Below are positions 7,169 through 61,038 of a stretch of 64,000 bases of DNA, piece after piece. This DNA comes from a virus, in the IMG/VR virus record IMGVR_UViG_3300032173_000003, positions 23,021 to 87,020 of that record. One strand, given 5' to 3'. The position numbers and the translations under genes were made by a program. The notes beneath the pieces were generated by a model that worked only from the letters and a program-made list of their open reading frames with translations, was not told where the DNA came from and searched no databases. Numbering within the stretch: the first letter of the stretch is position 1; each line of letters opens with the position of its first letter.

Positions 7169-7418
7169 TGGGCTCACCAGTCCACTCTTCCCACTTGTCG
7201 ATTGGGCAACGCATGTTTGCGAAAGATGCCTTTATCCCAAGTATGCATAAACATATGTCACACTGGTCTGTATTTTCCATGTAATGGTTACATTCATGGC
7301 AAATGTCTAACCTGTTTTTTCGTATTGACCTTGGGGCCAGTTTAGGGTTTTCTAGCACTCTCTTTGCGCTATCTCGGAGGGAGTCGCCAAAGGAACGTCT
7401 ACAACAGTCTTCAGCCAT
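7158..7418 (-). CDS. Small Cys-rich (zinc ribbon-like) protein
   Basis: 86 residues from the ATG at 7418. CHEC and CDICLC clusters with a later Cys (MRCPIDKW) could bind one zinc. Similar short zinc-ribbon proteins are common in phages; function unknown. Overlaps the endonuclease gene by 8 nt and the next gene by 11 nt. Confidence 0.6.
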   Translation of the reverse strand: MAEDCCRRSFGDSLRDSAKRVLENPKLAPRSIRKNRLDICHECNHYMENTDQCDICLCILGIKASFANMRCPIDKWEEWTGEPNED

Positions 7419-14905: not shown

Positions 14906-16368
14906 GATAACCCGAACGCTGTACCAACTGGGGCGTAACGCTCGGCATAGACCGCATTCTTCATAACCTCGATGGGAGTAATCACCTTGCCGGTAAGAAC
15001 CGATGTGAGGATTGAAGGGCTGCAGCCAGAAACAAGGCAAGTGCCCGTATCGTGCATCTTCATGGGGACGTTGCCCCCGGCGTTAACATTCCAGAACACA
15101 AGCTCAGGCAAAGAATATCCAGCTTGGGCGTACTTGATTCGGATTGCTTCAAAGTTTGTAACTGAAGCCCCTGTGCAACACCGGTCAAACTCCATGTCTG
15201 AAACAATGATGAGCTTGCGGGGCATGTCTCCTTCGGGGACATTGTTTCTAACCGCAGTATTCAACACCAGGTTAAATACCGCTTGAAGGTCCGTACTCAT
15301 CCCCCAAGCTGCATTGGAAAGGTTCCTGATGCGTTGGGCAATTGTTTGACCAGTTACAGTTTGCAGTTCGGGAGTTGAAGAGAAAGTCAAGAACTTGTCT
15401 TTCCAGATCCCAGTGTTGCGCTCCGAGATATACATCGCCATAGAGATGGAAACTGCCATAGGAGTTCCATACATGGAGCCAGAGACGTCAGCAACAACAA
15501 GTCCGTTAAACTCTTGACCCTCCATGTAGTTAGGCAGAGCCTCCCACATTAGGTTCAGGGTTTGGTCACTGGATTCACCTTTGTTCAGGTACTTGTCTAC
15601 GATTTCGTAAGGATAGATGGTGCCAGCATTAATCTTAGCCTCACCCTTTTCAACAGCATTGAGGTACGTTTGGTAACGTTCCCCATCACGTTTTGCGAAA
15701 GCCTTGCGATACATAAAGCCAGCCCGAGAAGGCAACTTGCTGTAATCAATATTTTCCCATTCACGGGAGCACATTGCTTGTTCGACAATTCGGATTTGCG
15801 TACGAAGGGCGGTGAGAGCCTTGCGGTATTGGCGCTCAGACCAACCCATTGCTTCGGCAATCTTGCGGCCGATGCGCTTTGATTCTTTACTGGAAGCATT
15901 AACCGAAGGCAGCCACTTTGCAAGTAGGGAAACAGAGTTTCCTACTTCCGTATTCAAGTCAGTGGTAAGCTGAGTCTTGATGGCGTTCAAGGCAACATCC
16001 CAGACCAGGGTTCCCTCAAGTACCACCAAGTCGTCCCAACGTCCGAACTCAGGAATCAGACCGACAAGTTTAGCGCCGATTGTAGCGTCACTGCGCACAA
16101 GTTCCTTAAACAGTTCACGGAAGATTTTGCGCTCACCTTGGCCTCCACGAATGTCGCGAGCCCAAAATAGAATCCTGGCTGCAGTTTCTGCGTCTTCGGC
16201 GTAAGCCAGGTTGAATAGGCGAACGGCTTCAGGCACATTGTCACGGCAGGCCGCAATCTTACCAAAAAGGTCAAGATTCTTGGAACCTGTGGACTTATAG
16301 GCTTTTGCGCCGTTTGCAGTCGTGGTGGTATTGAAGTTGTTCTCTAGAGCGTTTAGAAATGTCGTCAT
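14902..16368 (-). CDS. DUF2828-like protein: TROVE-like helical domain plus vWA
   Basis: 488 residues. The N-terminal 280 are helical repeats with phrases typical of DUF2828 (DIRGGQGERKIFRELF, SLLAKWLPSVNASSKESKRI, RQYRKALTALRTQIRIVEQA, YSKLPSRAGFMYRKAF). The C-terminal 200 form a von Willebrand A domain with an intact MIDAS motif DVSGSM and a later SDMEF. The architecture parallels Ro60/Rsr, a ring that binds tRNA-like Y RNAs and misfolded RNA. I infer an RNA-binding role; true homology to TROVE needs a profile search. Two promoters precede it, and the abnormal tRNA cluster lies 0.6 kb downstream. Confidence 0.8.
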   Translation of the reverse strand: MTTFLNALENNFNTTTTANGAKAYKSTGSKNLDLFGKIAACRDNVPEAVRLFNLAYAEDAETAARILFWARDIRGGQGERKIFRELFKELVRSDATIGAKLVGLIPEFGRWDDLVVLEGTLVWDVALNAIKTQLTTDLNTEVGNSVSLLAKWLPSVNASSKESKRIGRKIAEAMGWSERQYRKALTALRTQIRIVEQAMCSREWENIDYSKLPSRAGFMYRKAFAKRDGERYQTYLNAVEKGEAKINAGTIYPYEIVDKYLNKGESSDQTLNLMWEALPNYMEGQEFNGLVVADVSGSMYGTPMAVSISMAMYISERNTGIWKDKFLTFSSTPELQTVTGQTIAQRIRNLSNAAWGMSTDLQAVFNLVLNTAVRNNVPEGDMPRKLIIVSDMEFDRCCTGASVTNFEAIRIKYAQAGYSLPELVFWNVNAGGNVPMKMHDTGTCLVSGCSPSILTSVLTGKVITPIEVMKNAVYAERYAPVGTAFGLS

Positions 16369-16463
16369 TTTTCTTTGTGCAAGTTGATTGTTTTGTGTGT
16401 TTAAGATACAAGTTATGGCTGTATCAACTTTGATCCCGATGGCTGAACCACCGTTCTGTGCCT

Positions 16464-21298: not shown

Positions 21299-21328
21299 AT
21301 CATACAGCATAGTCCCCCCTGTTGTCAA
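21299..21328 (-). promoter_or_regulatory. Promoter
   Basis: Minus strand: TTGACA, 18 nt, TATGAT; overlaps the 3' end of the GIY-YIG gene. Confidence 0.7.
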
Positions 21329-22139
21329 GGGGTTCCTGTAGGAGTCTCATTCTGTTTGACGTATCAATCCCCCTTGCTTTTTGGTAACTTGAAAGACTAC
21401 CAGCATTTGTAGTAAAACCAGTTACCGTGCATTGCCATCTCTGAGACAGGGCAATGGCTAAATTTTCTCTTGCCTTTTCTCTTTGCTCCGGGGTCTTACT
21501 TGCCGCCCTCTTCTTTGCAATTTCACTTCTTTGCTCCGGGGTCTTACTTGCCGCCCTCTTCTTTGCAATTTCACTTCTTTGCTCCGGGGTCTTACTTGCC
21601 GCCCTCTTCTTTGCAACTTCACTTCTTTGCTCCGGGGTCTTATTTGCCGCCCTCTTCTTTGCAACTTCACTTCTTTGCTCAGGAGTCATACTTGCCTGCG
21701 CCTTCCTTACCCTCTTACTTCTTTGCTCAGGAGTCATACTTGCCGCCGCTTTCCTTCCCCTCTTACTTCTTTGCTCAGGAGTCATACTTGCCGCCGCTTT
21801 CCTTGCCACCTCACTTCTTTGCTCCGGTGTTGAATTCTTCAAGTATTCCGTATTACAAAATCTCTCATTAGCATTGTGTTTATTGGCAAATTTCGGATTC
21901 AATCCAACGTCATAGAAACGGTGAAGAATCCTCTCATCCTTATTCGCCTCTTCTCTGGTCTCATAAGTCCCTAGTATAATCTTACTAGTTGGTAGAAATG
22001 ACTTATCGCTAAATGAACCAAAATACTTCACATCTTCTTCCGGCTTACAGTTACAGCTTCTCACCCCGATGTAACCCCTACCAAACTCTTCATACGAGTA
22101 GTAAGTATAATGGTATTTTTTGTGAAGGTCGGTTCTCAT
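21300..22139 (-). CDS. GIY-YIG-type homing endonuclease with tandem repeat linker
   Basis: 279 residues. N-terminus YHYTYYSYEEFGRGYIGVRS with DVKYFGSF matches the Seg/GIY-YIG core of phage homing endonucleases. Residues about 105-235 are about eight copies of a 16-residue repeat (consensus S.TPEQRSE.AKKRAA), each likely a DNA-binding helix. The C-terminus WQCTVTGF...YQKARGIDTSN is seen in other phage GIY-YIG enzymes. Intact frame. A promoter and small genes overlap its 3' end. Confidence 0.82.
   Translation of the reverse strand: MRTDLHKKYHYTYYSYEEFGRGYIGVRSCNCKPEEDVKYFGSFSDKSFLPTSKIILGTYETREEANKDERILHRFYDVGLNPKFANKHNANERFCNTEYLKNSTPEQRSEVARKAAASMTPEQRSKRGRKAAASMTPEQRSKRVRKAQASMTPEQRSEVAKKRAANKTPEQRSEVAKKRAASKTPEQRSEIAKKRAASKTPEQRSEIAKKRAASKTPEQREKARENLAIALSQRWQCTVTGFTTNAGSLSSYQKARGIDTSNRMRLLQEPLDNRGDYAV
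21470..21835. repeat. 48-bp tandem repeat, about 7.5 units, inside the GIY-YIG gene
   Basis: Coding repeats: the first five units (21475-21690) are 90-100% identical, the last ones more diverged. The exact 3-fold period keeps the frame, so copy number can change without breaking the gene. Confidence 0.9.
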
Positions 22140-24331: not shown

Positions 24332-24541
24332 TCACCCGAACCCGTGCTCATCCCAGAAAAGGTTAGCTTCATATAGGCCGCCGTACCAAATGGCCGTAAA
24401 TAACCAGAATAGGCATATAGTTGCAAGCAGGAAAGGATAAATAAGCAGTCGCCTCAGGATGACAAACCACGGCAACAAACCTGTGCGTCTGTTTTCGGGC
24501 CAGCGCAGAATCTTGATTAGTTTTTGTTCTTTAATAGCCAT
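24332..24541 (-). CDS. Small membrane protein
   Basis: 69 residues: basic N-terminus, then a long hydrophobic stretch LLIYPFLLATICLFWLFTAI. Overlaps the end of the RNA ligase gene by 25 nt. Function unknown. Confidence 0.55.
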   Translation of the reverse strand: MAIKEQKLIKILRWPENRRTGLLPWFVILRRLLIYPFLLATICLFWLFTAIWYGGLYEANLFWDEHGFG

Positions 24542-25551
24542 TCGTTACTAATTACTTTGAATGAGAATGAGGAATCGTAGGATTTGAATACCAGACCTTC
24601 GCGCTTGACTTCAGGATTTAAAGAAGGGCCAGTGGCATAGCTGAGCAATGCTTCGACATTATCAAAGCGGCTAGCCACATAAGTGCGCAAATCCCAGATT
24701 GGAGTGTGCTCAAGGTTGGCCCCAAGGGCAATCAGAATGTCCTCAAGGAAGGCAAGACGTTGACCGGGCTTCATGTAGGTCCCGGCATCAATGTCAAAGA
24801 TGTCAAACAGGTACAGGCGTTGGCCTTGAATTTTTTCCTGATTACCCTGGATTCCTTCGCCAATGAGTTCACCTTGGATAGCCACATTGTGGCCAGTCCT
24901 TTTGTTGTAAGCAAGCAGTGCCTCAACGATGTTTTGATCTCGGGCAGCTTTCCAGAAACTGTTCCCTTCTGTCTCTATCAAATCAAGGTTACGGCTGCAT
25001 ACACCGACCTCTCCATCCTTGACGTAGATTGTGCAAGAGGAGCCGTCGAGTTTGATAGTGACCTCAAAGGACTCATCTTTGTGCTTCTCAAAAATGTCCG
25101 AAACAACGTTCTGGCAACGTTCCTGGTCAGTTTTTGGAATGAAGCTGGGGAAGTTGCCCCTAGCTGTACCTGCAAGGCAGGCAGGGACAGGTGCTTCCCA
25201 TTTTTGAATGCCCAGGGTTTCTGTAACATCGGTTCCAGGGTCACGGAAGAAGCTAAGCTCTACCGGCAGCAAAAGCCCCTGCGACAAAGTACCCCTGAGT
25301 CGGATAGTTCTCAAACGTTCACCTTTCACCCCATTATATTCACGGGGCTCTTTGCCTTTACTGAGGAATGGGGCAAGTTCGTGGGGGATCCATGAATCCA
25401 CCTCACAATAAATCACAAGGTCGTTTACTTGATACTTATTGATAGTATCAACAACCCACCAACCATCTACCCGATAAGCACAAATCTTATCTGCTTCTGG
25501 AATCGGTTTAATTTCTTCAATTTCTCGGATTGTTGCCAGTTTTCGTGTCAT
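24517..25551 (-). CDS. RNA ligase, DRB0094/Rnl5-like (N-terminal OB domain)
   Basis: 344 residues. Nucleotidyl-lysine motif I is KLDGSS with Lys167; downstream GVCSRNLDL and GELIGEGIQGN match motifs Ia/III-IV, and REGLVFKS near the end the motif V region. Residues 1-120 form a separate domain starting RKLATIREIEEIKPIPEADK, as in the DRB0094 family that seals 3'-OH/5'-phosphate RNA ends. It should seal ends healed by the kinase and phosphatase encoded near the left edge. Immediately upstream is a wrecked endonuclease gene and then the first 34 codons of a second such ligase. Confidence 0.88.
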   Translation of the reverse strand: MTRKLATIREIEEIKPIPEADKICAYRVDGWWVVDTINKYQVNDLVIYCEVDSWIPHELAPFLSKGKEPREYNGVKGERLRTIRLRGTLSQGLLLPVELSFFRDPGTDVTETLGIQKWEAPVPACLAGTARGNFPSFIPKTDQERCQNVVSDIFEKHKDESFEVTIKLDGSSCTIYVKDGEVGVCSRNLDLIETEGNSFWKAARDQNIVEALLAYNKRTGHNVAIQGELIGEGIQGNQEKIQGQRLYLFDIFDIDAGTYMKPGQRLAFLEDILIALGANLEHTPIWDLRTYVASRFDNVEALLSYATGPSLNPEVKREGLVFKSYDSSFSFKVISNEWLLKNKN

Positions 25552-31247: not shown

Positions 31248-32213
31248 TCAGTTTCCGATACGCTTCACAGCAATCCTCGATTTATTGAGAATGCTACCGG
31301 CAAGGGGAACATAACCCAAGTCATCAGCAATCATTTGTGCCTTTGCGCTCAGAGCATAATTAAGTGCCTGTTGAATATCACTTGCTTTCCTAGCACCATT
31401 TCCGGTCTTATAGGCAAGAACCCAAGTCAGAGTAGAAATAGGATAAGCACCAGAAGCAGAAGGGTTGGGATTTTCTCCAGCAAGGTTACTATCAAGTGTA
31501 ATACTATTCAGAGCAATAGCACCAGATTTAGCATTAGGAAGAACAAACTGTCCTGCTTTGTTTTGAATTGCTGCTGCTTGGAGTTTGTTTGCTTTTACGA
31601 ACCCAGTATTCACATAACCAATAGAACCAGGAGTAGTCTTAACAGTACCAGAAACACCTTCGTTACCTTTGCCACCAATGCCAACAGGCCATTTTACTGA
31701 CTTACCAACTCCAGGTTTCCAACCACCAAAAGCATCCAGAGAATTAGTGAATGCAAAAGTAGTTCCAGAACCATCAGAACGATGAACAACGGTCATAGGA
31801 CCTGCAGCACATCCAAGTGCTTTCCAATCCTTGATGCGACCGGAGAATACATCCACAGTTTGCTTCTGAGTGAGTTTCAGAGTGCATCCTGGTTTGTTAT
31901 AAGCAATCGCAATCGTTCCACCTACCATCGGGATTTGAACGACACCACGCTTTACTTTACTTGCCTCTTTTGACGAAATAGGTTCATCAGTTGCACCGAA
32001 ATCAACAGTTCCTGCGACATGCTGACGGACACCAGCACCAGAGCCAACGGACTGGTAATTCACACGGTTTCCAGACGATTGTGCATAATCTTGGAACCAA
32101 CGCTGATAGATTGGTGCCGGGAAGGTTGCACCAGCACCGTTCAGAGCAGGTCCAGCAAGTGTTGCTACAGGAGCAGCAACCATACCTGCAACAATAAGAT
32201 TTTTAAGTTTCAT
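31248..32213 (-). CDS. pstS: Phosphate ABC transporter substrate-binding protein PstS
   Basis: 321 residues. Signal peptide MKLKNLIVAGMVAAPVATLA, then GAGATFPAPIYQRWF, YQSVGSGAGVRQHVAGTVDF and HRSDGSGTTFAF, the phosphate-binding loops of PstS. It would bind phosphate in the periplasm for the host Pst transporter. Cyanophages are known to carry pstS as an auxiliary metabolic gene. Codon use resembles host genes. PHO-box-like repeats lie about 45-65 nt upstream, suggesting control by host PhoB. Confidence 0.97.
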   Translation of the reverse strand: MKLKNLIVAGMVAAPVATLAGPALNGAGATFPAPIYQRWFQDYAQSSGNRVNYQSVGSGAGVRQHVAGTVDFGATDEPISSKEASKVKRGVVQIPMVGGTIAIAYNKPGCTLKLTQKQTVDVFSGRIKDWKALGCAAGPMTVVHRSDGSGTTFAFTNSLDAFGGWKPGVGKSVKWPVGIGGKGNEGVSGTVKTTPGSIGYVNTGFVKANKLQAAAIQNKAGQFVLPNAKSGAIALNSITLDSNLAGENPNPSASGAYPISTLTWVLAYKTGNGARKASDIQQALNYALSAKAQMIADDLGYVPLAGSILNKSRIAVKRIGN

Positions 32214-32336: not shown

Positions 32337-33815
32337 TCAGAAGGTGAACTTGGTTTGGATTACACCACCCCACTTGTTGGAATCTTGATAACGCTGATTG
32401 TTGTCAACGTAGAAGAGAGCGGGGGTGATGCTGATGTTATCGGTGACTTGGAACTTGTAGAAGAACTCAAGCATCGTAGCATCACTTACACCAGCGGTTT
32501 CGGCAGAAGGTGCTTGTCCAACGGCAATACCAGCGGCATTACCAGCAACAAAAGCATCTTGCCACTGAAGACCAACAAACCACGAATCAGAGTCCGTAGC
32601 ATCGGTAGCGCCAACAGTACCACTGACAAAGTTATAACCATAACCAGCCGAGATAGAAGGAATGAATCCACTCTCGGAAGGTTGCCAGTAAGCGTTCAGA
32701 GCAACGGCATTGGATTCTTGACCATTAACCAGAGCACCATTGGCACCAAGGATACCGTTGTAAGAACGAGGACGGGTGCCCTCAGAACCGTAACGATAGC
32801 CTACACCAACACCCCAGTTAGGGGCCTTATAGCCAACCTGAGCAAGGAAGTTCAGAGCACCATCAGAATCAAAGACACCGGTTTCACTGTCGTCACCGTT
32901 TTGGGCAACATAGATTAGACCAGCAACGATTCCGTTTTTACCGACATACTGAGCACCGACACCAGCACCAGTTGCCTTGTTATAGACACCAGGAGCACCA
33001 GCAACGGCAAAGAAGTCAAGGATTTCCGACTTATATGCGGAAGGAACCCATGCCATCTCAGTGTTACGAACCAAAGGACCAGCAGTCAGAGTTACACCCT
33101 TAGAGACTGGGAACTGATAGTAAAGACGATCAATCTCTACAGAGCTATCGGTAGATTCTGCCTTATCAAGTTTGAACAAAGAAGAACTGGAACCGAATGG
33201 ATCGCTGCTGAAATTACCAGAGCGGAGACGGGTACGAAGCAAATCCTTGCCTGTGAATGAAGTATCAAAGTTCAGACGGAGATCATAGTTAAATGCGGTG
33301 TTGCCAACGTTTCCACCATCATTTGTTTCTAGACCAGGAACTCCACCAAGGACGAAGGTTGCTTCACCTTTGAGTTTGGTTGTGGTTGAGAATTGAGTTG
33401 CCTCAAGTTGCCCAACCTTTGCATCAAGACCATCTACACGGGCAGTAAGAACAGTAAGTTCCGTCTTGAATTCTTTCAGCAGACGCTGAAGTTCATCTGT
33501 AGTTTCAGTCACACGGTCCAAGCAAGCATTTAGAAGTGCTGCTGCTTCGTAACGGGTCATTGCCTGACCACCGACGAAGGTGCCATTAGGATATCCAGCA
33601 ACACAACCATAACGTTGTACCAGATTTTCCAGCGCCTGATATGCCCAATCCGTAGGACGGACATCAGAGAATTGAGTAATACTCGTGACCTGATCCAAGG
33701 GACCTTGGGAGTATTGGTTAACTGCGTTGAGGTTGAGTTCTGAGGCAGAAGCTCCGATGGGGGCTGCTACGCTCAGTGCCGCAACACTGAAGCCAATAAA
33801 AGAGTTGAGTTTCAT
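32337..33815 (-). CDS. Cyanobacterial SLH-domain porin (iron-uptake-porin type)
   Basis: 492 residues. Signal peptide MKLNSFIGFSVAALSVAAPI then ASA. Residues about 50-110 hold an SLH domain (FSDVRPTDWAYQALENLVQR, GQAMTRYEAAALL); residues 115-145 are a coiled coil (DELQRLLKEFKTELTVL); the rest is a beta-barrel with alternating strands ending VIQTKFTF, with the terminal Phe typical of outer-membrane proteins. Such porins belong to cyanobacterial outer membranes and are named iron-uptake porins. Presence in a phage suggests changing host nutrient uptake or masking a receptor. Followed by a strong terminator. Confidence 0.95.
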   Translation of the reverse strand: MKLNSFIGFSVAALSVAAPIGASASELNLNAVNQYSQGPLDQVTSITQFSDVRPTDWAYQALENLVQRYGCVAGYPNGTFVGGQAMTRYEAAALLNACLDRVTETTDELQRLLKEFKTELTVLTARVDGLDAKVGQLEATQFSTTTKLKGEATFVLGGVPGLETNDGGNVGNTAFNYDLRLNFDTSFTGKDLLRTRLRSGNFSSDPFGSSSSLFKLDKAESTDSSVEIDRLYYQFPVSKGVTLTAGPLVRNTEMAWVPSAYKSEILDFFAVAGAPGVYNKATGAGVGAQYVGKNGIVAGLIYVAQNGDDSETGVFDSDGALNFLAQVGYKAPNWGVGVGYRYGSEGTRPRSYNGILGANGALVNGQESNAVALNAYWQPSESGFIPSISAGYGYNFVSGTVGATDATDSDSWFVGLQWQDAFVAGNAAGIAVGQAPSAETAGVSDATMLEFFYKFQVTDNISITPALFYVDNNQRYQDSNKWGGVIQTKFTF

Positions 33816-42968: not shown

Positions 42969-45305
42969 TCAGTTGGCGAGTCTTACCCAGGGTACCGAGG
43001 CGTTCGTTATGGTCAGATTTCCCAAGTTAACGCCTGTAAAAAGGGCAATTGCCTCATCCTGGTTTAACCCAGTCAGCTGCAGGGTGCCATCGTTATTTCG
43101 GTCCCAGTATAACACGGTATTTGCAGAAACGTTCCTAGTAAAATACTTACCGGGAACTAATTGCACTTTATCACTAAGCCTGTCGAAGTCACGTATTGTC
43201 AGAGAATCTCTGGACACAGATGAAGATGCAATGCTAGCGGTGTAAAAAACTCTTGGAGACCCTCCCCTAACTTCACCGAGGATGAAGACATCTGCTCCAC
43301 CCCTACCGGTAGCATGATCAACCTGACTCCTGCCGAGAGCTGAAGGAGTTGTGCCTGTTGCAGGCACACCTGATATGTAGTCTACATTGTTGGTCCCTAC
43401 TAACCTGTTGTTGCCGGCTGTCCCCCAGATGTAGTTGATACCGGTGGAAGTGTCTGCTATGGAGATAGTTTTGGAAGCAACTTGCTGAGTTCTTCCTGAA
43501 TCCGAGAAGAGTCCGAACAGCAAGTTCTCCGTCCCTTCTGGGGTAGTGTCATTCACGACAGTAAAAGATAAGGAGGCAGATCCTTCCGTTACTGTTAAAC
43601 TTCCTTGGAGGTTGGCGGGACTTATGTCCCCGGCCTGAATACCGGACATCCCCCAGTACAGCACCGTCCCACTGTTTACATTGTTCGTTGTTAGGTTCAG
43701 GGTAACGGTTGCTCCCTCATTAACTGAGGATGGCCCAGCTACAGAGTAGTAGGGAGCTGAGCTACCATAGCGGTTGTAGAGTTCAGTCAGACCCGCTTTC
43801 GTGTCCAACCTGCCGTTAGTGACAACTTTACCGTTGAGGGAGGTTGTGGCCCTTGTAGTTGAAAGCAATACATCTCTCAGCTCCCTTCTCCCTGCTTGGG
43901 GGAAGGATGCTGCGAAGAGAGCTAAAGAGCCAGCAACATGGGGGGCCGCCATGGAAGTTCCATTCAGAGAACCGTAGGTACCATTTAGTCTGGATGACTG
44001 GATGCCACTCCCAGGAGCCCCGATATCAACAGTTGTTGAGCCGTAGTTGGAAAACCCAGAGAGAGAACCACTGGAGGTCAAAGAGGATACAGCCGTAATG
44101 GCTTCCCAACCTGCAGCGGTCAAGGTTGAATAGTTCGAAGGGTAGCTAGGTACTGAGTTGTTGTTGGAAGAATCGTTTCCAGCCGCTGCAATAAAGTGAT
44201 TATTTACTGAGGCACCGTTTGAGATCGAAGTGCTAAGTAAGGAGGAGAAAGTTCCTCCACCCCAAGAGTTGTTAGTCCCAATAAAGACGGCAGTTGAAGA
44301 CGGATTGTAAGCCTTGTCTTGGGCTTGGGTGGAACTAGTATAGTAATCAATGGCCTGAATGGCGTCACTCAAAAAACCACTCCCGCTGCTACTGAGAAAC
44401 TTAATTGGCACAATCTGAACTTCCCAGTTTACCCCTGCAACACCAATTGAGTTATTGCCTAGGGCACCAATGGTGCCGGCGACGTGCGTACCATGGTAGT
44501 TATCGTCCATAGGATCATTATCACCGTTGAAAAAATCCCACCCCACCAAGTCATCGACAAAACCATTGCTATCATTATCAACCCCGTTCTCCCAACGAGA
44601 GTCATTAAGCAAGTCTCCGGCATCTATTCTACCATTAGAGTTAACGTCTGTGACATAGCTGGAGTTTGCAGCGTTGTTCAGGTCCCTGAATGTGATTAGT
44701 CCGTCCCCATCTGTATCTGTTAAAGAATTGAAGAAAGATAGGGTCTTTATTTCACCTTGGTTAAGGTAAATGTTTAAGTACAAATCTGGGTGCCTGTAAT
44801 CAACTCCGGTATCAATAACGCCGATAACAACTTTTGGACTCCCCGTATAACCTGAAGCCCACGCTTGTTCTGCTTGGCTGCCGTAGATGTTCGTGGTCCC
44901 GCTTGGGCCAGCCGGTGTGGAATCATCCGAGTACATACCCCACAAAGAACCATTGACATACAACGCATCGTTGCCAGTCGCTAGGGCATTTACAGTGAAA
45001 TTTGGCTCTGCTGTAAGAACTCCCGGAGTTTTCTTAAGAGCTTCAATCGATGCATTAATGTTTGCTCCCTCAGGTAGGGAAACTCTCTCAATAACTCCCC
45101 TTCCTTTCTTCCTCATGAGAGGGGTTTGAAACTGCTGTACCCGGCTCGCACCCAGGGATTTCAGAGTTGTTGACCTCTGAGAAAAATTATTTGTGTTAGA
45201 CCATTCTACCAAGATTTCTGGTTTAGGGCCTGGCGAAGCCAACGCAAAAGAAGAACCTAATAGGGGTATAAACGTGGCTAGGCCAATAGAATTTAAAAAT
45301 CTCAT
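42969..45305 (-). CDS. Secreted S8 subtilisin-like protease, cyanobacterial type
   Basis: 778 residues. Signal peptide (SIGLATFIPLLGSSFALAS); inhibitor-like propeptide about 25-110; catalytic Asp in VIGVIDTGVDYRHPDL (about 165), His in YHGTHVAGT (about 275), Ser in GTSMAAPHVAGS (about 455). An insert between Asp and His carries Ca-binding loops (DTDGDGLITF, DVNSNGRIDAGD, DNDSNGFVDD). Residues about 530-630 resemble a Calx-beta module; the C-terminus (YIWGTAGNNRLVGTNNVDYI, RGGADVFILGE) resembles cyanobacterial hemolysin-type repeats. All catalytic residues present. An exported host-like protease is very unusual in a phage; it may digest proteins outside the cell or open biofilm. Confidence 0.93.
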   Translation of the reverse strand: MRFLNSIGLATFIPLLGSSFALASPGPKPEILVEWSNTNNFSQRSTTLKSLGASRVQQFQTPLMRKKGRGVIERVSLPEGANINASIEALKKTPGVLTAEPNFTVNALATGNDALYVNGSLWGMYSDDSTPAGPSGTTNIYGSQAEQAWASGYTGSPKVVIGVIDTGVDYRHPDLYLNIYLNQGEIKTLSFFNSLTDTDGDGLITFRDLNNAANSSYVTDVNSNGRIDAGDLLNDSRWENGVDNDSNGFVDDLVGWDFFNGDNDPMDDNYHGTHVAGTIGALGNNSIGVAGVNWEVQIVPIKFLSSSGSGFLSDAIQAIDYYTSSTQAQDKAYNPSSTAVFIGTNNSWGGGTFSSLLSTSISNGASVNNHFIAAAGNDSSNNNSVPSYPSNYSTLTAAGWEAITAVSSLTSSGSLSGFSNYGSTTVDIGAPGSGIQSSRLNGTYGSLNGTSMAAPHVAGSLALFAASFPQAGRRELRDVLLSTTRATTSLNGKVVTNGRLDTKAGLTELYNRYGSSAPYYSVAGPSSVNEGATVTLNLTTNNVNSGTVLYWGMSGIQAGDISPANLQGSLTVTEGSASLSFTVVNDTTPEGTENLLFGLFSDSGRTQQVASKTISIADTSTGINYIWGTAGNNRLVGTNNVDYISGVPATGTTPSALGRSQVDHATGRGGADVFILGEVRGGSPRVFYTASIASSSVSRDSLTIRDFDRLSDKVQLVPGKYFTRNVSANTVLYWDRNNDGTLQLTGLNQDEAIALFTGVNLGNLTITNASVPWVRLAN

Positions 45306-52515: not shown

Positions 52516-52537
52516 TTATGGTTTCATAATTTAGCAA

Positions 52538-52586
52538 GATGGTTGTTTTTCTACCAAAAAGAAAGGTTTTAGATTGCTGAACCATC
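52538..52586 (-). ncRNA. Stand-alone CAGC-motif hairpin (copy G)
   Basis: Outer helix GATGGTT/AACCATC, strand CAGCAATCTAAAACC, inner helix TTTC/GAAA, strand AAC. Very close to copy F at 14326. Confidence 0.65.
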
Positions 52587-52625
52587 TTTGAAATGCTATC
52601 GCATTTCTTTTCCGTTAGGAAAAGA

Positions 52626-53807: not shown

Positions 53808-53842
53808 CCCATGCTCTGATAATAGTAAAACTAAATGACCAC

Positions 53843-53888
53843 GATGATTGTTTTTCCGATAGTTAAGGGAGTTAATTGCTGAATCATC
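53843..53888 (-). ncRNA. Stand-alone CAGC-motif hairpin (copy H) at a transcript start
   Basis: Outer helix GATGATT/AATCATC, strand CAGCAATTAACTCCC, inner helix TCC/GGA, strand AAAAAC. Starts about 7 nt after the -10 box at 53895. Confidence 0.65.
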
Positions 53889-53894
53889 ATATCT

Positions 53895-53921
53895 ATTGTA
53901 GCAACATTTACAAAAAGTAAA
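53895..53921 (-). promoter_or_regulatory. Internal promoter of the tRNA array
   Basis: Minus strand: TTTACT, 15 nt, TACAAT. A near-identical copy lies at 54684-54710. Confidence 0.75.
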
Positions 53922-53937
53922 TGCTGACACCAACTTG

Positions 53938-54055
53938 AAACCAAGGTTGGACTTGAACCAACGGCTTGCTTTACCCTCCGGCATTACGGTCCTTTACCGA
54001 GGCTCTCTTAGAAAGCCTGAGGAGGTTGCTGCTCTACCAACTGAGCTACTTGGCT
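53938..54055 (-). tRNA. tRNA with an enlarged anticodon domain
   Basis: Acceptor AGCCAAG/CTTGGTT, D-arm GCTC-GAGC and T-arm GTTGG-TTCAAGT-CCAAC are good. Between them an extra helix CCTCC/GGAGG encloses an anticodon-like hairpin AGGCT-TTCTAAGAG-AGCCT and a second hairpin CGGT-AAAGG-ACCG. 118 nt in all. Anticodon not assigned. Confidence 0.7.
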
Positions 54056-54069
54056 TATCTCAACTACCA
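54036..54069. repeat. Direct repeat left of the SET gene
   Basis: 34 bp shared (3 mismatches) with 54712-54745: the D-arm and acceptor 5' strand of a tRNA plus flank TCTCAACTACC. Confidence 0.85.
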
Positions 54070-54642
54070 CGCTCTAAGCCGCATGGCAGGCAAATTATCA
54101 ATTTGACCAGCCCCCATTGTTAGTGACAACTTTAGTGTGCGATGGCGCAATACATGCTTCATCACCCACCCTTGCCGCAGGTATCGGTCTTGAGTTCCAA
54201 CCGGCAGCGTATCAAAATCGCGAATTGTTCCACGGCACAGCGCAGAGCCACACTGACAGTCTTTCATTTCCCAATGCCGTTCCAGCATTGTTGTGCTGTA
54301 GTCGATGACTAATTCCTCGTCAGCTTCAATACGCCGAGCAGCTACTAGCCATAGATCAGAGTTTATGTAGCAGTTTGGATGGCAGGAGTGATTGGTGTAC
54401 AGACCTGGAGCTTCGGGATTGAGGTACAAGTCCTCTCCAATTTGAAGCGTATTAGCTTCGTCGTCTATCTGGCACTGCTCATTGAAGCTCAGGCGTTCAC
54501 CTTCAAACTTCAGAAGCAATTCCCCCTTAGGCACTGGTGCCACGGCGAATATGCCACGACCCAAGCGGCACTTTCTGACTTGGACGCAGGGGAAACGCTT
54601 TCCGTGTGCTACATTGATCAATAATGCTTGCTCATCGTCCAC
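54064..54642 (-). CDS. SET-domain protein methyltransferase
   Basis: 192 residues from a GTG at 54642 with GGGGGA 8 nt upstream; a TTG at 54657 is the alternative. The SET domain is complete: GRGIFAVAPVPKGELLL near 30, YTNHSCHPNC (SAM-binding NHSC, about 85-94), EELVIDYSTT (catalytic ELxxDY type, about 115), and a post-SET CQCGSALC zinc cluster near 132. SET enzymes methylate protein lysines. In phages they are very rare. The gene is flanked by direct repeats of a tRNA end and a promoter, so it was probably inserted. Confidence 0.92.
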   Translation of the reverse strand: MDDEQALLINVAHGKRFPCVQVRKCRLGRGIFAVAPVPKGELLLKFEGERLSFNEQCQIDDEANTLQIGEDLYLNPEAPGLYTNHSCHPNCYINSDLWLVAARRIEADEELVIDYSTTMLERHWEMKDCQCGSALCRGTIRDFDTLPVGTQDRYLRQGWVMKHVLRHRTLKLSLTMGAGQIDNLPAMRLRAW

Positions 54643-54683
54643 GTGGATATCCCCCAAAACTAAGCCGCTGAATCATCATACCT

Positions 54684-54710
54684 ATTTTAGCAACATTTAC
54701 AAAAAGTAAA
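54684..54710 (-). promoter_or_regulatory. Promoter of the SET gene
   Basis: Minus strand: TTTACT, 15 nt, TAAAAT; duplicate of the promoter at 53895-53921 including the start of a CAGC-motif leader (GATGATTCAGC) that is then cut off. Confidence 0.7.
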
Positions 54711-54711
54711 T

Positions 54712-54745
54712 ACCAACTGAGCTACTTGGATTCTCTCAACTACCA
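54712..54745. repeat. Direct repeat right of the SET gene
   Basis: Partner of 54036-54069; here the tRNA 5' part is truncated and joins the promoter directly. Confidence 0.85.
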
Positions 54746-54768
54746 CAGGTTTAAACAACTGTGGCAAA

Positions 54769-54849
54769 TACCCACCGGGGGACTCGAACCCCCACGCCTT
54801 GCGGCACTGGAACCTAAACCCAGCGCGGCTACCATTACGCCAGGTGGGC
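54769..54849 (-). tRNA. tRNA-Leu (TAG)
   Basis: Acceptor GCCCACC/GGTGGGT, stem CTGGG/TCCAG with loop TTTAGGT, type II variable arm. Confidence 0.94.
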
Positions 54850-59821: not shown

Positions 59822-60011
59822 GTGCTTTCTCTAAGTATTTGTAAGGGTTTTCAATGAGCCATATGCGGAAGATGGCATCCGCCTGTTTCGGGGAGAGATT
59901 CGGGAATCTTCTAGTTAGGGAGGACTCTATGTTAAAAATGTTTACTTTTTTGTTATCCCTTAGGAAAGTCAAGTAGTTCAAGTGAACTTCTATTACGGGC
60001 ATTGCGGTCAT
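59811..60011 (-). CDS. Small protein, paralogue of 59633
   Basis: 66 residues from the ATG at 60011, which overlaps the Thg1 stop by 4 nt. LNYLTFLRDNKKVNIFNIES then LSPKQADAIFRIWL aligns with the downstream gene; the duplicated pair has diverged. Confidence 0.65.
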   Translation of the reverse strand: MTAMPVIEVHLNYLTFLRDNKKVNIFNIESSLTRRFPNLSPKQADAIFRIWLIENPYKYLEKAHEN

Positions 60012-60793
60012 AGGGACAAGAACCAATCCAATGATAACTTGTCCGGGGGCACCCATTCGGACACCACTGTTCGGATAACCGGCTCAGTCGGTTTGTATGC
60101 CTCGGGGATTTTCTCCAGGGATGGATCATCCGGCTGAATAAGGACTCTTTGCCTACGGACATAGGTTCCGTGAGTGAAGAACCTGGGCAGCTCCTCCCAA
60201 GGATTACCCGAGTTGCGGAGCAAATCCTTCATCTCATTGCAAGTTTCCCCTTGGAGGAACTTATGTGAAAAATGATGGTAGGCATACATAGACACAGAGT
60301 TCTTAGTAGCATCATTCAACCGCCACAGGAAGTTCTTGTAAACATGCTCAAGGTCTGGCACGTTCCATACTCGGCAATCAAACACCGGGTATTGTCCGAC
60401 TTTTTCCGGCAGATACCTTGGGAGGTTGCCGGCAAAGAAGGAGGATGCCGTGGCTGCCAACACTGAAGTCAATTTCTGAAACTTGCCACCGAACCAATAC
60501 TCCCTATTTGAATACTGCTCCTTGTCCAGGTGCCAGTATAAAGATATTTCGTCAGATTGGCAAAACCCGAGCAAAGCCTCACTCTCTTCAACAAGGTGCT
60601 TAGTTGTAGCAACCATCAGGCGAACAAAACGTTCGTCAAATGGGCGCTCCAACCCCTTAGTGAATTTGGAAAAGCACTTGCCGTCAATGCGAGCCATCAA
60701 CGGGAGGTAAGGATTTGCCTTACGTCCTGCCTCTGCCTGCTCTTGAACCTTGAGTAAATCCCCAAGGGTATCCTTATAGTTTGATTCAGTCAT
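60008..60793 (-). CDS. Thg1-like 3'-5' RNA polymerase
   Basis: 261 residues from the ATG at 60793 (4-nt overlap with the lipoprotein gene). The palm motif ARIDGKCFSKFTKGLERPFD near 34-53 and GFCQSDEISLYW near 78-89 give the metal-binding Asp residues and the QSDEIS signature of Thg1/TLP enzymes; FDCRVWNVPD follows. Thg1 adds G-1 to tRNA-His; Thg1-like proteins repair 5'-truncated tRNAs by templated 3'-to-5' addition. With kinase, ligases and RlaP this is the fifth RNA end-processing enzyme. Confidence 0.9.
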   Translation of the reverse strand: MTESNYKDTLGDLLKVQEQAEAGRKANPYLPLMARIDGKCFSKFTKGLERPFDERFVRLMVATTKHLVEESEALLGFCQSDEISLYWHLDKEQYSNREYWFGGKFQKLTSVLAATASSFFAGNLPRYLPEKVGQYPVFDCRVWNVPDLEHVYKNFLWRLNDATKNSVSMYAYHHFSHKFLQGETCNEMKDLLRNSGNPWEELPRFFTHGTYVRRQRVLIQPDDPSLEKIPEAYKPTEPVIRTVVSEWVPPDKLSLDWFLSL

Positions 60794-61038
60794 TTGAAGT
60801 CTTTCCATTGCGGTGTCTGCCCACAGTTTTGTTTTTCCAACGGGTAGCGGGCAACCACACAATTCTGGTGCGCTTCCAAAGAGTTTAGATAGAGGTCGGA
60901 CTTAATTTGAAGAATGTCCCGCTCTTTGCAGTCACTTTGGTTTTTGTATGGGCACGGTTGAGGATTAGGTTTAGGTTCCTCGTGGCTGCACCCTGTTAAA
61001 ATAATAAGGGGCAACACAATCAATAGCAGATACATCAA
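60790..61038 (-). CDS. Small lipoprotein
   Basis: 82 residues; signal peptide YLLLIVLPLIILTGC with lipobox, then a Cys-containing mature part (PQPCPYKNQSDCKERD). Exported and lipid-anchored. Between a helicase and the Thg1 gene; function unknown. Confidence 0.65.
   Translation of the reverse strand: MMYLLLIVLPLIILTGCSHEEPKPNPQPCPYKNQSDCKERDILQIKSDLYLNSLEAHQNCVVARYPLEKQNCGQTPQWKDFK

Follow-up and report, generated by a model that had tools for sequence, protein, structure and literature searches.

A SET-domain methyltransferase gene with duplicated flanks in the tRNA array of a likely jumbo cyanophage, probably imported from another phage

SET-domain enzymes are mainly known as eukaryotic chromatin writers. 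The lysine methyltransferases MLL/KMT2, ASH1L and NSD (PF00856) have the SET fold, the NHSC and DY motifs and the post-SET cysteines CxCx4C in common with the phage SET proteins described here. The phage proteins differ from them in being stand-alone proteins of ~160-197 aa without pre-SET or chromatin-reader domains, in having a C-terminal helical tail of their own (IRDFDTLP..Q..Y...GW), and in their context, since the host of the phage is without histones. Another described system, BurB/MSMT, is a SET-fold methionine S-methyltransferase that acts on free methionine and yields S-methylmethionine (PMC12542666). BurB and the phage proteins are both small, have the same fold, keep CxCx4C and align without gaps through the catalytic and post-SET region (residues ~90-152). 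However, BurB carries LHSC at the position that is occupied by NHSC in the phage clade and in every one of the 19 homologues aligned, and its nearest relatives set it apart from the phage proteins in the tree. Small SET proteins of Verrucomicrobia (L004-L009) have the DYSTTMLERHWE motif and the C-terminal tail in common with the phage proteins and align with them over the full length at 36-40% identity, but they are encoded by chromosomal genes of another phylum and fall outside the phage clade, which has a support of 100/99.

SET proteins in phages are already on record from metagenomes. Proteins of uncultured Caudovirales (for example BFVD A0A6J5L8Y2) are likewise small and phage-encoded, but they show only ~20% identity to the SET protein studied here in a structural alignment and are not among the close relatives found by sequence scans. 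What this analysis adds is the SET clade of cyanophages, the empty site and the scars left by the insertion. The gene also resembles phage morons, which are single genes with their own promoter that occur sporadically and at varying sites between phages. Unlike usual morons, it sits between a tRNA gene and the gene of a tRNA-like RNA and is accompanied by duplicated parts of the tRNA array.

The DNA analysed, referred to as the window, is a 64-kb stretch (positions 23021-87020) of an 87-kb linear viral metagenomic contig. It encodes PstS, a cyanobacterial-type iron uptake porin, Ro60/TROVE, an RNA ligase, Thg1 and a Dda-like helicase. A stretch of 75-78 bp in its tRNA array matches the tRNA regions of four Synechococcus phages at 88-97% identity, and related contigs found via a neighbouring nucleotidyltransferase (69-86% identity) reach 277 kb. 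Based on PstS, the iron porin, the likeness of the tRNA array and the large related contigs, the phage is most likely a jumbo cyanophage; we infer the host from these same features. The preferred explanation, to which a probability of roughly 60% is given, is that this phage acquired a functional SET methyltransferase gene from another cyanophage and took it up in its tRNA array, where the gene would encode an accessory protein-lysine methyltransferase under a duplicated promoter.

The SET ORF (54064-54657, minus strand, 197 aa) is intact, contains no frameshift and matches Pfam SET (PF00856) with an E-value of 1.6e-12 and 48.2 bits, the curated cut-off being 22.4. An earlier note on this DNA had described the SET domain as complete, and this description holds: N89 H90 S91 C92 (NHSC), D119 Y120 (DY) and C134, C136 and C141 (CxCx4C) show no variation among 19 aligned homologues. 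PHROGs and NCBIfam contain no family for the protein. Its start is uncertain, as the TTG at 54657 is the only common start codon ahead of in-frame stops, while an internal GTG a few codons into the ORF has a better Shine-Dalgarno-like GGGGG; both look weak. In a codon comparison with three relatives, dN/dS ranges from 0.09 to 0.24, with 0.09 against the viral contig L002, to which silent sites are near saturation, and it is low throughout the SET clade. Over the first 20 codons, dN/dS against L002 is 0.10, so the N-terminal extension is probably translated. The gene is intact and under purifying selection, and together with the catalytic motifs this selection points to a working enzyme.

The AlphaFold model of the protein has a mean pLDDT of 83.5 and is confident over the domain, and the predicted fold is that of a SET domain. 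The best structural matches are the SET domains of MLL3, MLL4 and ASH1L with Z ~14 (14.2). BurB follows at Z 13.6, tied within 1 Z of the lysine methyltransferases, and occupies Foldseek ranks 2-3. It is also matched almost as well as the histone methyltransferases by phmmer (1.9e-5 compared to 4e-6 for MLL1). Likeness of the predicted fold leaves the substrate unfixed. The phage enzyme could be a small-molecule methyltransferase like BurB/MSMT that S-methylates free methionine or another metabolite and thereby alters the sulfur or osmolyte metabolism of the cyanobacterium. BurB contacts its methionine mainly through the main chain, so an activity of this type is compatible with the phage sequence, and the retained CxCx4C and the unchanged length of the catalytic region also fit. 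Nevertheless, this explanation is considered rather unlikely. The LHSC of BurB departs from the NHSC of the phage clade, BurB ranks first in the PDB for proteins of Streptomyces and Deinococcus, which branch in a group of their own, whereas it does not rank first for the phage protein, and no downstream pathway genes were seen beside the SET gene. No conserved neighbour gene that would indicate a target was found either. The protein is probably a protein-lysine methyltransferase, with which its motif set is compatible, and a BurB-like activity is less likely.

The insertion is best followed along the minus strand, on which all of its elements lie. The first in order is tRNA-Leu(UAG) (54769-54849, called by ARAGORN), one flank of the empty site, which adjoins the tRNA-like gene in the related contigs L081 and L082. 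This is followed by a truncated second copy of the leader with the first ~20 nt of the tRNA-like gene (54711-54746) and by a duplicated promoter block (54667-54711), which includes the first ~11 nt of a hairpin RNA and reads into the SET gene. Next are a first copy of the 9-bp direct repeat GCGGCTTAG (54660-54668), the imported block (54080-54661) and the second copy of GCGGCTTAG (54074-54082). The imported block is homologous to the SET locus of L002 (L002:3655-4236; blastn, 75% over 586 columns), and the two copies of GCGGCTTAG, which bracket it directly, are the only ones in the window. The original leader with the 5' end of the tRNA-like gene (54035-54070) comes thereafter, then the remainder of this gene, the original promoter block (53878-53922) and the conserved hairpin RNA (53837-53893; covariance model R1, 65.6 bits), the ~11 nt at its beginning being those carried in the duplicated block. 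The tRNA-like RNA itself (53938-54055) is 118 nt long with a 58-nt insert in the anticodon arm, is matched by the Rfam tRNA model with 43.0 bits, and is ~90% identical to its counterparts in L081 and L082. This complete copy is undamaged, and the second copy retains only the ~20 nt mentioned.

The two leader copies form a 36-nt repeat (D8) with 94% identity and the two promoter blocks a 45-nt repeat (D7) with 96% identity; as sequence matches, both pairs lie far beyond chance. Both promoter blocks contain the promoter-like motif TTTACT-N15-TAnAAT, as TTTACT-N15-TACAAT from 53921 in the original and as TTTACT-N15-TAAAAT from 54710 in the duplicate. The motif occurs four times on the minus strand of the window and never on the plus strand, compared to 0.33 expected from shuffles, and in relatives it is found again between tRNAs, oriented like the array. 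The repeats and duplicate promoters around the SET gene had been recognized in the earlier note, which took the repeat for the 5' part of a tRNA. It is indeed a 5' end that is repeated, but that of the tRNA-like RNA rather than of a tRNA called by ARAGORN.

The leader and promoter blocks are thus duplicated around the SET gene, and the inserted block has its counterpart at a locus in another lineage of phages. In the preferred explanation, this block would most likely have entered by illegitimate recombination. This could have happened through a tandem duplication of local sequence and a subsequent deletion, or through an insertion with staggered ends that gave rise to the 9-bp repeat. Besides a target-site duplication, microhomology could also explain this repeat, since the ends of the L002-like donor have 2-3 bp in common with GCGGCTTAG.

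The same features bear on two explanations that may involve a mobile element. The earlier note had proposed a pick-up by recombination at a tRNA. With the tRNA as an attachment site, this would imply an integrase-driven, site-specific integration of a small mobile element, with the repeats as attL and attR. The direct repeats do hold part of the tRNA-like gene and flank cargo. However, the repeated part is the leader and 5' end of this gene, where the 3' end is expected for an integrative element of a tRNA site. A second, promoter-containing pair of repeats is interleaved with the first, and the borders of the imported block are formed by the 9-bp repeat, which is unrelated. The SET gene is the only gene between the repeats, where neither an integrase nor a transposase is encoded. 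Nothing points to an integrase having acted at a tRNA site, and this explanation is disfavoured and regarded as highly improbable. Alternatively, the SET gene could be a selfish or neutral passenger on a mobile element or at a recombination hot spot, without benefit and perhaps freshly inserted. The 9-bp direct repeats resemble the target-site duplication of a DNA transposon, the tRNA array is a plastic region, and the distribution of SET genes is patchy over four contexts. Yet the segment has neither a transposase or integrase nor terminal inverted repeats of at least 18 nt at its ends. The low dN/dS across the clade, the lack of frameshifts and the promoter copy in front of the gene also argue against a mere passenger, which is considered slightly less probable still than the small-molecule methyltransferase. 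Import as a functional gene remains the preferred explanation.

The earlier note had suggested a search for the empty site in related phages, and it was found in two relatives, the jumbo phage contigs L081 and L082, both of which are fragments. In the 277-kb record of L081, the tRNA-like gene follows tRNA-Leu(UAG) after 50 bp and in the 134-kb record of L082 after 29 bp, compared to a gap of 713 bp in the window. A profile search of both whole records revealed no SET gene, while the record of the window, used as positive control, was found. The empty sites in combination with the duplicated flanks make insertion far more likely than loss, which bears out the proposal of a cargo gene inserted by recombination beside the tRNA-like gene. 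A search for the DNA of the insertion region in isolate phages found nothing, and an exact-pattern scan of IMG/VR for the insert of the tRNA-like RNA returned only the two relatives already known. Since the contig is metagenomic and the SET gene is flanked by repeats of 36-45 bp, the SET gene of another phage could have been mis-assembled into it. Such a chimera is very improbable, as a usual read exceeds the repeats in length, the SET DNA is only 75-83% identical to the two copies compared, and the junctions carry a 9-bp duplication and a promoter copy specific to the array.

The closest homologues are encoded by viral contigs, with identities of 76% (L002), 77% (L003/L011) and 72% (L010). 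A phylogeny of the SET domain, also suggested in the earlier note, was computed for 39 proteins and places the window protein with these in one phage-only clade with the support given above. The Verrucomicrobia proteins form a separate clade and are the nearest cellular sequences by path length. The context of the gene differs in each of the four contigs. In L002, its neighbours are a divergent class I methyltransferase-like gene on one side and a convergent gene on the other, and homology with the window extends from the first codons of one of these neighbours to the last codons of the other. As this homology ends inside both neighbours, the imported block would have come from an L002-like arrangement. 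At silent sites, however, L010 and L011 are nearer to the window gene than L002. The three contigs look like cyanophages from their other proteins: the terminase of L002 is closest to cyanophage S-2L (52%), the annealing protein of L010 to Synechococcus phage S-LBS1 (85%) and the HNH protein of L011 to S-SCSM2R (67%).

The presence of a closely related SET gene in three other cyanophage-like contigs and its absence from the relatives suggest a travelling accessory gene. Passage between differing cyanophages, rather than a fresh pick-up from the host, is the simplest account of these sequence relationships. A single scan of genome contigs with two peptide patterns gave matches only in Verrucomicrobia and none in cyanobacteria, although a more distant cyanobacterial SET may exist. 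The statement that SET enzymes are very rare in phages is borne out for isolates, as neither the window protein nor a divergent viral SET query had a match in 50,697 isolate phage genomes. It applies less to metagenomes, where 38 IMG/VR viral contigs encode SET relatives, the distant ones (L012-L046) being from phages or possibly from eukaryotic viruses, in addition to the Caudovirales proteins in BFVD. No publication on SET proteins in cyanophages was found in the open-access literature.

In the preferred explanation, the promoter copy would direct expression of the SET gene during infection, and the enzyme would use SAM to methylate a lysine in a protein of the host or the phage, acting as an accessory factor of host manipulation. 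A ribosomal or regulatory protein of the host, as suggested in the earlier note, is one conceivable target. A wider and more tentative proposal is that a cyanophage-specific SET clade circulates among jumbo myovirus, S-2L-like and S-LBS1-like types and serves host takeover by methylating lysines in a cyanobacterial protein or, more unusually, makes S-methylmethionine in infected cells; this is possible, though doubtful. A conserved and selected SET gene that moves between cyanophages offers a concrete gene for testing lysine or small-molecule methylation in the reprogramming of cyanobacteria. Its junctions clearly illustrate the capture of an accessory gene by a phage together with a duplicated local promoter.

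The sequences repeated on either side of the SET gene are parts of two RNA elements that are associated with the Ro60 gene of the phage. The first is a class of tRNA-like RNAs of 110-128 nt with full acceptor, D and T arms and an insert of 50-60 nt in the anticodon arm, which is missed by ARAGORN. Besides the copy beside the SET gene, the window contains three of them (13696-13814, 13919-14041 and 14160-14278, all on the minus strand) just downstream of Ro60/TROVE (14902-16368). Others were found in L081 (8383-8501), L082 (7842-7958), L110 (6815-6924), L085, L103 and L104. Most members of the class are located just downstream of Ro60. Such RNAs follow Ro60 in all four relatives where Ro60 was found, and the same holds for the isolate Synechococcus phage B23, whose annotation lists one of them as 'tRNA-Undet'. 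Bacterial Ro60 works with Y RNAs that mimic tRNAs. A TROVE protein with a tRNA-like partner has been noted in some jumbo phages (PMC7824862). By analogy, the tRNA-like RNAs are possibly phage Y RNAs that mimic whole tRNAs, a Y-RNA function being the obvious hypothesis. An assignment of the tRNA-like RNA beside the SET gene to YrlA was rejected, because Rfam gives only tRNA for it and the sub-threshold YrlA matches overlap ordinary tRNAs elsewhere.

The second element is the hairpin RNA of ~57 nt, with a stem around UUCAGCAAU...AAACAA. The stem covaries, as four of nine pairs are changed on both sides, with 98.6% paired. Apart from the copy next to the SET locus, clear copies in the window lie at 52532-52591, 14320-14379 and 13841-13901, all four on the minus strand, and a weak one at 16377-16433. 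Within the sequence searched, the hairpin was found only in Ro60 loci and tRNA arrays of the window and its relatives. In the whole 244-kb genome of B23, its only four matches (220288-220345, 220351-220403, 220516-220572 and a weak one at 218412-218479, just upstream of the Ro60 gene) are located within ~2 kb of Ro60. An Rfam search with a stretch of the L081 copy gave no significant match. The RNA elements linked to Ro60 may possibly constitute a new Y-RNA family.

Several other genes of the window deserve mention. Ro60/TROVE, a DRB0094-type RNA ligase (24517-25551) and a Thg1-like tRNA-His guanylyltransferase (60008-60862) form a set for RNA and tRNA repair that accompanies the large tRNA array, with 32 tRNA genes called in the window. 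The cyanobacterial-type iron uptake porin adjoins PstS (32337-33815 and 31248-32213), and both are possible genes for iron and phosphate uptake. A subtilisin-like serine protease of 778 aa is encoded at 42969-45305. HNH-like and GIY-YIG-like ORFs (7411-8127 and 21300-22139) with repeated NUMOD-type motifs, as read from their translations, are possible homing endonucleases and could promote gene exchange. Related jumbo phage contigs encode a tmRNA near the nucleotidyltransferase (ARAGORN tmRNA*, tag ANNIVKFERIAVAV), located at 11890-12273 in L054, 13383-13766 in L055 and 11422-11805 in L056.
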